DNA of 8,676 nucleotides from Actinomycetes bacterium (GTDB lineage: Bacteria > Actinomycetota > Actinomycetes > Propionibacteriales > Propionibacteriaceae): positions 1 through 8,676 of the forward strand of contig JAKOQD010000018.1 of the NCBI GenBank assembly GCA_029778515.1, read 5' to 3'. Shown piece after piece: positions 4,910-6,862 of this stretch (positions are counted from its first letter, which is position 1; each line of letters opens with the position of its first letter). Below the pieces are notes generated by a model. That model made no database searches, was not told where the DNA came from, and was given only the letters and a program-made list of their open reading frames with translations. The position numbers and the translations under genes were made by a program.

Positions 4910-4982
4910 GCGCTCGTGGCTCAATGGATAGAGCATCTGACTACGGATCAGAAGGTTGGGGGTTCGAGTCCCTCCGAGCGCG
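4910..4982 (+). tRNA. tRNA-Arg (anticodon ACG)
   Basis: The 73-base gene folds as a complete cloverleaf. The acceptor stem pairs GCGCTCG (4910-4916) with CGAGCGC (4975-4981), and G4982 is the discriminator. The D stem pairs GCTC (4919-4922) with GAGC (4931-4934). The anticodon stem pairs TCTGA (4936-4940) with TCAGA (4948-4952) around loop CTACGGA, giving anticodon ACG at 4943-4945. It would decode CGU, CGC and CGA once A34 is deaminated to inosine. The T stem GGGGG/CCCTC with one G-U pair encloses TTCGAGT. CCA is not encoded and must be added post-transcriptionally. Its anticodon arm is duplicated exactly at 6314-6330. Confidence 0.97.
4936..4952 (+). repeat. Putative attL core in the tRNA-Arg anticodon arm
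   Basis: The 17 bases TCTGACTACGGATCAGA form the anticodon stem and loop and recur exactly 1,378 bases downstream (6314-6330) in the same orientation. tRNA anticodon arms are common crossover sites for tyrosine recombinases, so this copy is read as the island end that keeps the intact tRNA. Confidence 0.6.
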
Positions 4983-4990
4983 CAGATTCA

Positions 4991-5015
4991 AGGGCCCGGC
5001 TAGTCCGGGCCTTCT
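4991..5015 (+). terminator. Intrinsic terminator of tRNA-Arg
   Basis: The perfect core stem GGCCCGG (4993-4999) with CCGGGCC (5005-5011) is extended by G-U and A-T pairs to AGGGCCCGG/CCGGGCCTT. It has a 5-base loop and then TTCTGTGG. It lies 8 bases beyond the tRNA. Confidence 0.75.
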
Positions 5016-5050
5016 GTGGTTCCGCGGGTAAACGATCGGATCCCGAACCG

Positions 5051-5082
5051 TTACGACACTTTGTTTCCGTAAAGTGTCGTAA
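5051..5082. promoter_or_regulatory. Perfect 12-bp inverted repeat: candidate operator of the Fic gene
   Basis: TTACGACACTTT (5051-5062) and AAAGTGTCGTAA (5071-5082) are exact reverse complements with an 8-base spacer. The site is A/T-rich against a GC-rich background. It ends 9 bases before the GTG start and overlaps the proposed -10 box. This is the expected place for a dimeric repressor site, and the Fic protein's own C-terminal winged helix is the obvious candidate ligand. Confidence 0.65.
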
Positions 5083-5085
5083 GCT
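5080..5085 (+). promoter_or_regulatory. Possible -10 box for leaderless Fic transcript
   Basis: TAAGCT fits TANNNT and ends 6 bases before GTG 5092, placing the transcription start on the start codon. No Shine-Dalgarno sequence is present in the 20 bases upstream. The first three bases of the box lie inside the right arm of the inverted repeat. Confidence 0.4.
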
Positions 5086-5091
5086 GCCATC

Positions 5092-6318
5092 GTGGCGCAT
5101 GAAGTAAGCGGCTACGCAGAGGCCGCAAAGCGATTCGGCCCTGTGGGCTGGGAGCCCCATCCGTGGATGCCCGGCCACGACGTCTCGTTGCTTTCTCGCC
5201 GCCAGCAGGCCGCGATGCCCAGCACCTACCAAGCTGCCGTGCCCGTCGACATCGCGCCCCTTGATTTCGCAGTGAATGGGGCAGTGGCTGCCGATGCCGA
5301 GGATGCTGCGGCGGCGATCGTCCGGCTTGATACCTACGTCAGCTCGGTCTTCGGCGAGGACGATATCGCTCCGATGCGGTCGGTGTTGTTGCGCTCTGAA
5401 TCGGCGGCGTCCAGCCAGATCGAAAACCTCACCGTGGGTGCGCGCCAGTTGGCTCTGGCCGAACTTGGTGCGACTGCGAGCCACAATGCGAAGTTGGTTG
5501 CGCAGAACGTCGCGGCTATGGACGCCGCCGTCCGGCTGTCCGAACGCTTGGATGCCGAAGCGATTCTCTCCATGCACAAGGTGTTGCTGCGAGACCGCCC
5601 CGACCAGGCTGGCCGCTGGCGCGAACAGCAGGTCTGGATCGGCGCCTCCGGCGTTAGTCCTGCGGGTGCTGCATTCGTGCCGCCGCACCATGACCGAGTG
5701 CCAGCGGCGATCGCCGATTTGGTGCAGTTCCTGGCCCGCAACGATCTGCCGGTTCTTGTGCATGCAGCGATCGCCCACGCCCAGTTCGAGACCATCCACC
5801 CCTTCGTCGACGGCAACGGACGAACCGGGCGGGCGCTGCTGCATGCGCACCTGCGCAACAAGCAGTTGGTTCGCCGGGTCACGATCCCGGTATCGGCCGG
5901 ACTGCTTGCCGACACCAACGCCTACTTCAAGGCGCTGACGGCCTACCGGCAAGGTGACATCGAACCGATTGTGAGCCAGCTCGCTGCAGCGTCGATTCGC
6001 GCCGCCGGGCTCGGACGCTGGTTGGTGGACCAGTTGGCCGACGTCCGCGACGGGTGGCTGAAGAGACTGCCCTCGCGAACTGGTTCAGCGGGTCGGCGTC
6101 TCGCCTCAATCCTGGTTGGGCAGCCCGCGGTCAACGTGACCTTTGTCGTCGAACGTTTGGGGGTTTCAGCCACCGCCGCCCGCCGGGCCATCGACCAAGC
6201 CACCGCTGCGGGTCTTCTGGTCGAGACCAGCGATCGAAAACGTAATCGCGTATGGATCGCGCGCGAGGCGCTCGCCGTCTTCGACGAGTTCTCGGATCGG
6301 GCGGGTCGGCGCGTCTGA
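5092..6318 (+). CDS. Fic-domain protein (class II, self-inhibited) with C-terminal winged helix
   Basis: Fic enzymes transfer AMP or another nucleotide moiety to target hydroxyls, and many also remove it. The 408-aa protein has a Fic_N-type region (about residues 10-125) holding the inhibitory [S/T]xxxE[G/N] motif as S107-SQI-E111-N112, which marks class II with the inhibitory helix before the Fic core. The catalytic motif HPFVDGNGRTGR is complete at 236-247: His236 is the base, Asp240 binds metal, and Asn242, Arg244 and Arg247 hold the nucleotide. The segment GVSPAGAAFVPP (187-198) fits the target-binding flap. Residues about 330-392 look like a winged helix (VNVTFVVERLGVSATAARRAIDQA... then LVETSDRKRNRVW). 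GTG 5092 is the start; the ATG at 5099 is out of frame. Stop codon and last residue lie inside the duplicated tRNA segment. No antitoxin gene is adjacent. The target is unknown. Confidence 0.92.
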   Translation: MAHEVSGYAEAAKRFGPVGWEPHPWMPGHDVSLLSRRQQAAMPSTYQAAVPVDIAPLDFAVNGAVAADAEDAAAAIVRLDTYVSSVFGEDDIAPMRSVLLRSESAASSQIENLTVGARQLALAELGATASHNAKLVAQNVAAMDAAVRLSERLDAEAILSMHKVLLRDRPDQAGRWREQQVWIGASGVSPAGAAFVPPHHDRVPAAIADLVQFLARNDLPVLVHAAIAHAQFETIHPFVDGNGRTGRALLHAHLRNKQLVRRVTIPVSAGLLADTNAYFKALTAYRQGDIEPIVSQLAAASIRAAGLGRWLVDQLADVRDGWLKRLPSRTGSAGRRLASILVGQPAVNVTFVVERLGVSATAARRAIDQATAAGLLVETSDRKRNRVWIAREALAVFDEFSDRAGRRV

Positions 6319-6330
6319 CTACGGATCAGA
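6314..6330 (+). repeat. Putative attR: exact copy of tRNA-Arg anticodon arm
   Basis: The 17-base copy of 4936-4952 overlaps the Fic gene end, whose TGA is 6316-6318. Similarity continues in decayed form to about 6348 (GGT, GGG and TCG.G segments aligning with the variable and T arms). It therefore looks like a tRNA 3' fragment rather than a chance hairpin. No acceptor 3' strand is recognisable. Confidence 0.6.
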
Positions 6331-6367
6331 TGGTCGGGTGTCGGGCTCGGACCTTGCCCACCCATCC

Positions 6368-6398: not shown

Positions 6399-6728
6399 TC
6401 AGGTCTGGCGAGAGGTGCACGCTCGCCACTGGCTTTCGTCACGACAGGGGTAGACGCAGCCGACACCGACCAGAGTCAACAGTCCGTGGGGCAGCAGGTA
6501 CGCGACTGTGTCCAGCTTCCACGCCTCAACGAGCCTGGTGATCTGCCTGCCGTCGTGAAAACGCCACCGCTCGAGGTGGTCCTCCAGCCAGACGTCCACT
6601 TCGCAGCCATCGCGCCACATGAAAGTGGCGCGAAGCGGTGGCTCGTCGTACAGGTGCCGTGAGGCAAGTCCACGCTGGATCCAGTGCACGTTGTGCCCGG
6701 GTCCAAAGCGGTCGCAGGAATCGGTCAT
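6399..6728 (-). CDS. Hypothetical protein, 109 aa, tryptophan-rich
   Basis: No family is recognised. The protein is a small soluble-looking chain with six tryptophans (16, 38, 47, 55, 70, 101) and five cysteines, two of them as CVYPC (91-95). A central acidic stretch reads DGCEVDVWLEDHLERWRFHDGR (40-61). A hydrophobic run around residues 76-93 is interrupted by proline and histidine, so a membrane segment is doubtful. Most codons end in G or C, as expected of a real gene here. The start was chosen at ATG 6728, because GGAG (6735-6738) lies 6 bases upstream; another in-frame ATG at 6734 touches that site directly. Extending the frame to 6938 would run into a dispersed repeat and gives less plausible codon use. 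The ATG overlaps the TGA of an upstream small frame as ATGA, suggesting translational coupling. The gene lies just outside the putative attR. Confidence 0.6.
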   Translation of the reverse strand: MTDSCDRFGPGHNVHWIQRGLASRHLYDEPPLRATFMWRDGCEVDVWLEDHLERWRFHDGRQITRLVEAWKLDTVAYLLPHGLLTLVGVGCVYPCRDESQWRACTSRQT

Positions 6729-6862
6729 GAACATCTCCGAGGTCGCAGCTTCCCCGACAGCTCCTGCCGGGGCTGATCTTCCTCCGGGGGCACCGTGTGC
6801 GGGACGCGGTTGCCAGGCGGCCAGCCGGAGGGTTTGGGGCCGCGCTTCTCGATCGCGCCCAA
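6725..6862 (-). CDS. Possible small coupled reading frame, 45 aa or 5'-truncated gene
   Basis: The frame reads GAIEKRGPKPSGWPPGNR and continues through a proline- and charge-rich segment to a TGA at 6725-6727, which overlaps the next gene's ATG as ATGA. In the first two-thirds nearly all codons end in G or C, better than the alternative frame through the same bases. The start is uncertain: TTG 6862 is used here without a ribosome binding site. The frame stays open upstream to ATG 6922, but that ATG lies in a dispersed repeat. It may therefore be the remnant of a longer gene whose 5' end was replaced by the repeat. No function is assigned. Confidence 0.33.
   Translation of the reverse strand: MGAIEKRGPKPSGWPPGNRVPHTVPPEEDQPRQELSGKLRPRRCS
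6735..6738 (-). promoter_or_regulatory. Shine-Dalgarno site selecting ATG 6728
   Basis: The minus strand reads GGAG-ATGTTC-ATG. The 6-base spacing favours the second ATG over the one that abuts the site. Confidence 0.5.

Follow-up and report, generated by a model that had tools for sequence, protein, structure and literature searches.

There is no good account of how single defence genes come to spread by themselves; they are mostly pictured as cargo of larger phages or islands. Phage satellites (phage-inducible chromosomal islands (PICI), P4-like elements and others) have their own integrase and packaging or regulatory genes. In the excerpts of the sources cited here, cis-mobilizable elements (CIMEs) keep attL and attR, lack integration and transfer genes, and can lie in tandem with other elements (PMC5704250); integron gene cassettes and clusters of attC sites lacking integron-integrases (CALIN) consist of a gene and a recombination site and are moved by an integrase in trans (PMC11389934); and the Fic protein Sofic of Escherichia coli is reported to work by abortive infection and has a 47-aa partner, AS1, encoded downstream (PMC12249575). 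A search of the literature, with texts available in part, returned no paper on single-gene Fic cassettes at tRNAs. The Fic gene analysed here lies in an 8,676-nt stretch of DNA from a member of the Propionibacteriaceae (contig JAKOQD010000018.1; the window, numbered on its forward strand), between an intact tRNA-Arg(ACG) gene and a displaced copy of part of that tRNA. The explanation that we favour, with slightly better than even confidence, is that 4936-6330 is an integrated single-gene cassette without an integrase, made up of an operator palindrome, the Fic gene and a core at its stop codon, and moved by integrases acting in trans. Its features are as follows.

4910..4983, + strand: intact tRNA-Arg(ACG), proposed target gene and proximal attachment site (attL); ARAGORN, Rfam RF00005 (69.6 bits), and position after the phosphoenolpyruvate carboxykinase (PEPCK) gene in 13 of the 15 relatives read
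4936..4952, + strand: 17-bp core repeat in tRNA-Arg, anticodon arm, tRNA nt 27-43
4993..5011, + strand: terminator-like stem-loop 3' of tRNA-Arg, read directly from the sequence
5051..5082, no strand: perfect palindrome (12-bp arms, 8-bp centre) that the Fic winged helix may use as its operator; from the sequence and the palindrome counts in the family
5080..5085, + strand: TAAGCT, putative -10 box of a predicted leaderless promoter, 6 nt from the start codon; from the sequence and the TANNNT counts in the family
5092..6318, + strand: Fic protein, 408 aa; Pfam Fic (E 1.6e-21), PADLOC SoFic (E 3e-69), structure model with Foldseek, and motif positions
6314..6330, + strand: distal copy of the 17-bp core (proposed attR), with the Fic stop codon inside
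6331..6341, + strand: decayed continuation of the tRNA 3' half past the core, from the 31-nt repeat at 87%

The two copies of TCTGACTACGGATCAGA lie on the same strand, as the original prediction had claimed and a repeat search confirmed, and start 1378 bp apart. The proximal copy coincides with the anticodon arm, again as claimed, and the decayed similarity reported past the distal copy can be followed to 6341, the extended repeat being 31 nt long at 87% identity (4933-4963 against 6311-6341). No other copy of the 17-mer is present in the window even when three mismatches are allowed; with an expectation of 0.01 for such matches in shuffled sequence, the view that chance is a very unlikely source holds. 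Only 109 bp separate tRNA-Arg (4910-4983 by ARAGORN, 4910-4982 by Rfam) from Fic, which is the sole family-matched gene between the cores, and no integrase is found there. The Fic stop codon, TGA at 6316-6318, falls within the distal core, so that no gene follows Fic inside the cassette. An element of about 1.4 kb at a tRNA, with Fic alone and without an integrase, is supported by the failure to find Fic beside this tRNA in the relatives read, by other cargo at the site in relatives and by similar units at other loci.

Like a CIME, this unit is bounded by direct repeats and has neither integrase nor transfer genes inside, Fic being its one family-matched open reading frame (ORF). CIMEs, however, are described as decayed integrative and conjugative or integrative and mobilizable elements, whereas Fic units turn up repeatedly with a single gene, and most close pairs have nothing but the gene region in common between contexts. 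The resemblance to an integron cassette or CALIN lies in the gene plus recombination site and in the integrase proposed here to act in trans; the difference is that the sites of the Fic units are 3' ends of tRNAs and genes and that no array platform was seen. In contrast to a phage satellite, the unit in the window is a single gene and has no integrase of its own.

Site-specific recombination in the anticodon arm of tRNA-Arg(ACG) would have inserted the cassette, so that one flank has the intact tRNA and the opposite flank a displaced remnant of the old tRNA, now in decay. Because the cassette encodes no recombinase, it was most likely moved in trans by the tyrosine integrase of another element that uses the same tRNA.

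The tie between Fic and tRNAs extends to the family. Fic loci were gathered as the best 80 of at least 586 from a genome collection, the viral locus L001, a further 80 fetched from listed places (34 of 48 and 46 of 49) and the window, 162 in all. Removal of three with identical proteins left 159. The pattern is repeated in Actinobacteria: in 17 of these loci, the 300 bp or so next to Fic contain a tRNA, a displaced 3' piece of one, or a duplicated 3' end of a tRNA or gene. Within 2 kb, 14 tRNAs face Fic with their 3' end and one faces away (sign test p=4.9e-4), with 8 and 0 at less than 1 kb and 6 and 1 at 1-2 kb; at 2-4 kb the numbers are 3 and 6. Facing tRNAs are most densely packed in the two nearest bins (26 and 20 per Mb, against 5 and 9 at 2-4 and 4-8 kb), and an intact tRNA is found less than 200 bp from Fic in five loci (Ser, Ile, Leu, Arg in the window, and Leu). 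Displaced fragments were scanned for with a library of 123 tRNAs from all loci, the 17-mer of the window falling under the threshold and so remaining uncounted. Eight fragments were found in the 94 kb within 300 bp of Fic (85/Mb). The 1968 kb lying more than 1 kb away contain 9 (4.6/Mb), a density about 19 times lower (P=2e-8). All eight are 3' parts of tRNAs (Pro, Phe, Met, Ala, Pro, Arg, Ala and Arg).

Direct repeats on both sides of the gene are likewise in excess. Exact repeats of at least 14 nt within 300-bp flanks occur at 8 of 156 Fic genes and 12 of 1118 neighbour genes (Fisher p=0.0015), with none in 20 shuffled pairings, and those of at least 17 nt at 6 of 156 against 3 of 1118 (p=1.9e-4). 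Imperfect repeats in 600-bp flanks with a score of at least 60 flank 7 of 154 Fic genes and 1 of 926 neighbours (p=7.5e-6); at a score of at least 40 the counts are 8 and 7 (p=3.8e-4). When only the four Fic cases judged by eye to be att-like are kept at the higher score, the control repeats not having been inspected in the same way, p is 0.0018. Att-like repeats on both sides were recognised in eight loci, at tRNA-Arg (the window), tRNA-Ala (L032 and L038), tRNA-Thr (L091), a tRNA-like 3' end with terminator (L331, by eye), and the 3' ends of a glycosyltransferase-like gene (L039, named by eye), of glnA (L306) and of an rskA-like gene (L053). Six of these units (the window, L038, L039, L053, L306 and L331) span 1378 (window), 1409, 1568, 1576, 1628 and 1649 bp, with no more than about 300 bp between Fic and either repeat. 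The other two are larger, at about 2.1 kb (L032) and 3.7 kb (L091). A fragment in L032 that had been taken for an integrase remnant was rejected as such, Pfam assigning it to MazE-like and DUF1275 families.

Occupied and empty forms of one such site are found in Agrococcus. In L053 a 1.57-kb insert containing only Fic lies between two imperfect repeats. Over 98 nt their identity is 85%, and 19 nt match exactly. The left flank is present in 18 of 24 genomes of the genus, its own included, and in 15 of the 17 other congeners the flanks adjoin without Fic. Eight of these empty sites have aligned flanks that overlap in one repeat copy, and seven have 26-141 bp unaligned; alignment of the L053 copies with two empty sites gives the common core GGATGCGTCAGGTCT. 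The two exceptions are a gap of about 670 bp (L377) and a different arrangement (L385). At two further loci, L287 (tRNA-Leu) and L317 (tRNA-Ile), no Fic block is present in 29 and 29 other aligned loci, respectively (30 loci each; 78 and 37 genomes matched). In these two comparisons the flank distal to the tRNA was unaligned, so that exact junctions were not obtained, and some pieces were found without the tRNA.

Close Fic relatives often share little except the gene. Among 91 testable pairs with proteins at least 80% identical (four more were skipped for short flanks), 65 share the gene region alone, the common block extending no further than 142 bp upstream and 95 bp downstream; in the other 26 it is longer. 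No collinear flank block is present within 3 kb in 51 of the 65. Eleven gene-only pairs have a DNA identity of at least 88%, five of them without a collinear block (e.g., L034/L260 at 94.5% and L327/L331 at 91.6%). At one tRNA-Met locus, three related genomes (L298-L300) have Fic genes that are 95-97% identical to one another and differing neighbours, some of which look toxin-antitoxin- and lysozyme-like by eye.

The tRNA-Arg(ACG) site was followed in relatives reached through the nearest homologues of the ligase gene of the window, from a family of 198 genomes; 15 loci were read. PEPCK precedes the tRNA in 13; in the other two, the contig starts near the tRNA (G151) or PEPCK stands beside an inverted partial copy of the tRNA (G001). 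The original prediction had named as the case against it that relatives all carry tRNA-Arg, Fic and the second repeat. Fic was found beside the tRNA in none of the 15 (tblastn, E 1e-5), with 5.4-15 kb of sequence after the tRNA in 13, 106 bp in G154 and 945 bp in G155. In the seven relatives in which tRNA-Arg and ligase are on one piece, 1.6-8.7 kb of other sequence lies between them. Different cargo at this tRNA, for which the original prediction had proposed a search, does occur. In G146 (locus L169), a displaced copy of tRNA-Arg nt 30-74 (93%) lies 14.9 kb from the tRNA, at 14965-15009, and is adjoined by a tyrosine integrase (PF00589, E 2e-13), so that tRNA-Arg(ACG) is a used integration site.

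The element in question, L169 25-15009, is about 15 kb long and prophage-like (genes named by eye), and its integrase looks intact, which makes it a candidate helper for the site in the window. Among 39 viral tRNA-Arg(ACG) loci, a relative of this integrase is present in two and Fic in none of the stretches examined. In G001 (L180, flipped) the inverted 45-nt copy of tRNA-Arg(ACG) at 5900-5944 lies beside PEPCK, and the intact tRNA (11527-11600) is 5.6 kb off, with LacI and transport-like genes (by eye) between; this arrangement is perhaps an inversion at the same tRNA-Arg.

The strongest competitor, which we regard as possible but rather unlikely, is that the unit is a CIME-like relic: Fic would once have adjoined attR in a larger phage or conjugative island, deletion would have removed everything else, and selection would have kept Fic. 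It agrees with the description of CIMEs, in the excerpt cited above, as decayed elements that retain attL and attR, and one deletion per case suffices. An integrase-bearing element does occupy the same tRNA-Arg in G146, and the 17-kb viral contig L001 ends at its Fic gene. Longer repeat-bounded spans exist as well, and L091, with its 3.7 kb, has a weak integrase remnant between tRNA-Thr and Fic (PF00589, E 0.0015, under the cut-off), which together fit the decay of a bigger island. Against a relic stand the six separate units of 1.38-1.65 kb, though the search favoured small units, and the close Fic pairs that share short ends in different contexts.

The L091 remnant is one of several observations that weigh against a mobile single-gene cassette. 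Some concern the window itself. Of the distal copy just 17 bp are exact, while other cases keep 43-47 nt, and the imperfect-repeat score is 42, under the cut of 60. The original prediction expected an empty site joining tRNA-Arg directly to the sequence after 6331; no exact empty site of the window was found among the tRNA-Arg(ACG) relatives, because no counterpart of the sequence after 6331 was found beside tRNA-Arg in them, and the occupied and empty forms that were seen belong to the sister case L053. The small ORF of the right flank (about 6402-6728, - strand) is matched in just 2 of the 198 family genomes, weakly. Others concern the family. No att signature lies near the gene in 142 of the 159 loci, which are partly related, so that the tests are not fully independent. 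The tRNAs 4-8 kb from Fic are also mostly facing (10 and 1), and the facing excess is therefore not limited to the nearest kilobases. If only att-like loci are kept among the exact repeats of at least 14 nt, 5 of 156 against an uninspected 12 of 1118 gives just p=0.047, and at an imperfect score of at least 30 significance is lost (17 of 154 against 68 of 926, p=0.08). Four of the repeats were rejected as att-like by eye: those of L075 (starts of paralogous small genes), L312 (local short repeats), L072 (which we take to be REP-like, i.e. like a repetitive extragenic palindrome) and L324 (a G+C-rich 16-mer). L312, L072 and L324 are among the eight exact-repeat loci, and L075, L312 and L072 among the seven with imperfect scores of at least 60. 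The likeness in size of the small units partly reflects the imperfect-repeat search, which looked no further than 600-bp flanks; 3-kb flanks give further exact repeats with spans of 2.5-4.2 kb in L021, L065, L096, L297, L322 and L328. Gene-only sharing was counted for Fic alone among horizontally moved genes, and 6 of the 11 gene-only pairs at 88% DNA identity or more have a collinear block within 3 kb (e.g., L311/L322, L299/L300 and L032/L038, where the shared block starts at the tRNA-Ala fragment), so that these may be the same site. Finally, no integrase has been tied to any cassette, and no circular form was seen.

Improbable, in our view, is that Fic is an accessory gene close to attachment sites that phages and islands swap by ordinary recombination, the small units not being mobile by themselves. 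The 3' ends of tRNAs and genes are general integration hotspots, and in L077 and L284 Fic also borders, or lies just beyond, displaced tRNA fragments that belong to neighbouring islands; L053, however, is an insert of Fic alone that is absent at the same place in 15 congeners. That the repeat arose from tRNA sequence by chance or gene conversion, beside an ordinary resident gene, fits a match exact over only 17 bp and the fact that no empty site was seen in the lineage of the window, but is very improbable given the shuffle expectation and the family-wide tie to tRNA 3' ends.

In the single-gene cassette, the region before the gene suggests how it may be regulated. The palindrome of the window, TTACGACACTTT-N8-AAAGTGTCGTAA, resembles those of L077, L071 and L099. 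Among 159 Fic genes, 51 have an upstream perfect inverted repeat with arms of at least 10, which in most cases begins some 40 nt ahead of the start codon. The same holds for 40 of 1436 neighbour genes, and shuffled sequence yields 0.0% in 795 trials. TANNNT just before a start codon marks leaderless transcription; this motif lies 5-8 nt before the start in 83 of 159 Fic genes and 108 of 1443 neighbour genes (p=1.7e-41), and exactly 6 nt before it in 79 Fic genes. A Shine-Dalgarno-like motif is present for 20 of the 159. In both comparisons the most upstream start codon was taken for the control genes, a choice that lowers the control rates and weighs against the contrast. The palindrome had also been considered as a recombination site, its arms and spacer resembling loxP; this was set aside because the right arm enters the -10 box at a fixed position. 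In L029, L036, L265 and L041 the first codons of Fic echo one half of the palindrome before the gene (by eye), much as they would with a third operator half-site lying across the start. In L001 the last gene of the contig (4866-6107), a Fic relative at 51%, has an upstream palindrome of its own.

CccR of Yersinia pseudotuberculosis, a Fic protein with a helix-turn-helix (HTH) domain, represses its own promoter via palindromes near -35 and -10 according to the excerpt cited (PMC9755527). The Fic protein of the window is alike in its Fic domain, in a C-terminal HTH and in a palindrome on its own, here predicted, promoter; it differs in that CccR is described there as a type VI secretion system effector and in that the palindrome of the window sits on a putative leaderless promoter. 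By analogy, this position suggests autorepression, in which the C-terminal winged helix would bind the palindrome and repress the leaderless promoter of Fic.

The protein itself is 99% identical, over 94% of the query, to its nearest relative, from an organism named Propionicimonas sp. The catalytic motif HxFx(D/E)GNGRxxR is present as HPFVDGNGRTGR at 236-247, with H, P, F, D, G, N, G, R, G and R invariant across 42 aligned sequences. The inhibitory motif of class II Fic proteins is (S/T)xxxE(G/N), which is found towards the N-terminus as SSQIEN (107-112). A structure model (mean predicted local distance difference test score, pLDDT, 84.9) has helices at 333-343, 349-356 and 360-372 followed by short strands, which in the model are read as a winged helix; some homologues carry precomputed Pfam domains that we take to be HTH-type. 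By Foldseek the nearest structure is Fic of Mycobacterium marinum (7cb8; TM 0.82/0.85 over 401 columns), and the Shewanella SoFic structure (SO_4266, 3eqx) gives TM 0.69/0.76 over 343-363 columns, matches to SoFic covering 343-396 columns in all. SoFic proteins (PADLOC SoFic, 3eqx and E. coli Sofic) are matched in fold, catalytic motif, N-terminal inhibitory motif and C-terminal domain. Since the score of 60.7 bits is under the NCBIfam equivalog cut-off of 550, the protein is a relative of SoFic and not a SoFic equivalog, and whereas E. coli Sofic has AS1, the cassette has no gene after Fic. The cargo would probably be a self-inhibited Fic AMP-transferase of the SoFic type and an abortive-infection defence gene. 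The one pointer to anti-phage activity is the PADLOC similarity, and we infer phage defence by AMP transfer. A phage collection contains only distant Fic proteins (19 records, none covering 80% of the query), and the 844 matching plasmid records are all under 60% identity, 21 covering 80%.

The genes of the window are, in order, an FMN oxidoreductase, a LacI regulator, PEPCK (GTP), tRNA-Arg(ACG), Fic, the small ORF together with its SAM-IV riboswitch, and lastly an ATP-dependent DNA ligase. The G+C content at third codon positions is 0.75 for Fic and 0.80-0.91 for the four neighbours measured. The small ORF has no Pfam family and is preceded by the riboswitch at 6741-6854 (- strand; 57.4 bits, gathering threshold 38). 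Between the LacI regulator and PEPCK, at 2469-2630, long direct and inverted repeats are clustered; one inverted pair is perfect over 33 bp and one tandem pair is 26 bp long. From its sequence the cluster looks like a REP-type element.

If the cassette is real, units of about 1.4-1.7 kb that recur with one self-contained gene but without a recombinase would count as gene-carrying integrative elements of very small size, and they would explain why Fic genes are shared between genomes without their surroundings. The palindrome on the putative leaderless promoter is a candidate switch for Fic, which lacks a partner gene in its cassette. More doubtfully, and as a tentative idea, the Fic family might be a new kind of minimal one-gene defence element of Actinobacteria that has its attachment core at the stop codon or close to it, circularises and inserts at 3' ends of tRNA and protein genes through any fitting resident integrase, with Fic, bound to a palindrome within about 100 bp of the attachment site, maybe serving as a directionality factor, so that derepression, defence and movement would be coupled.

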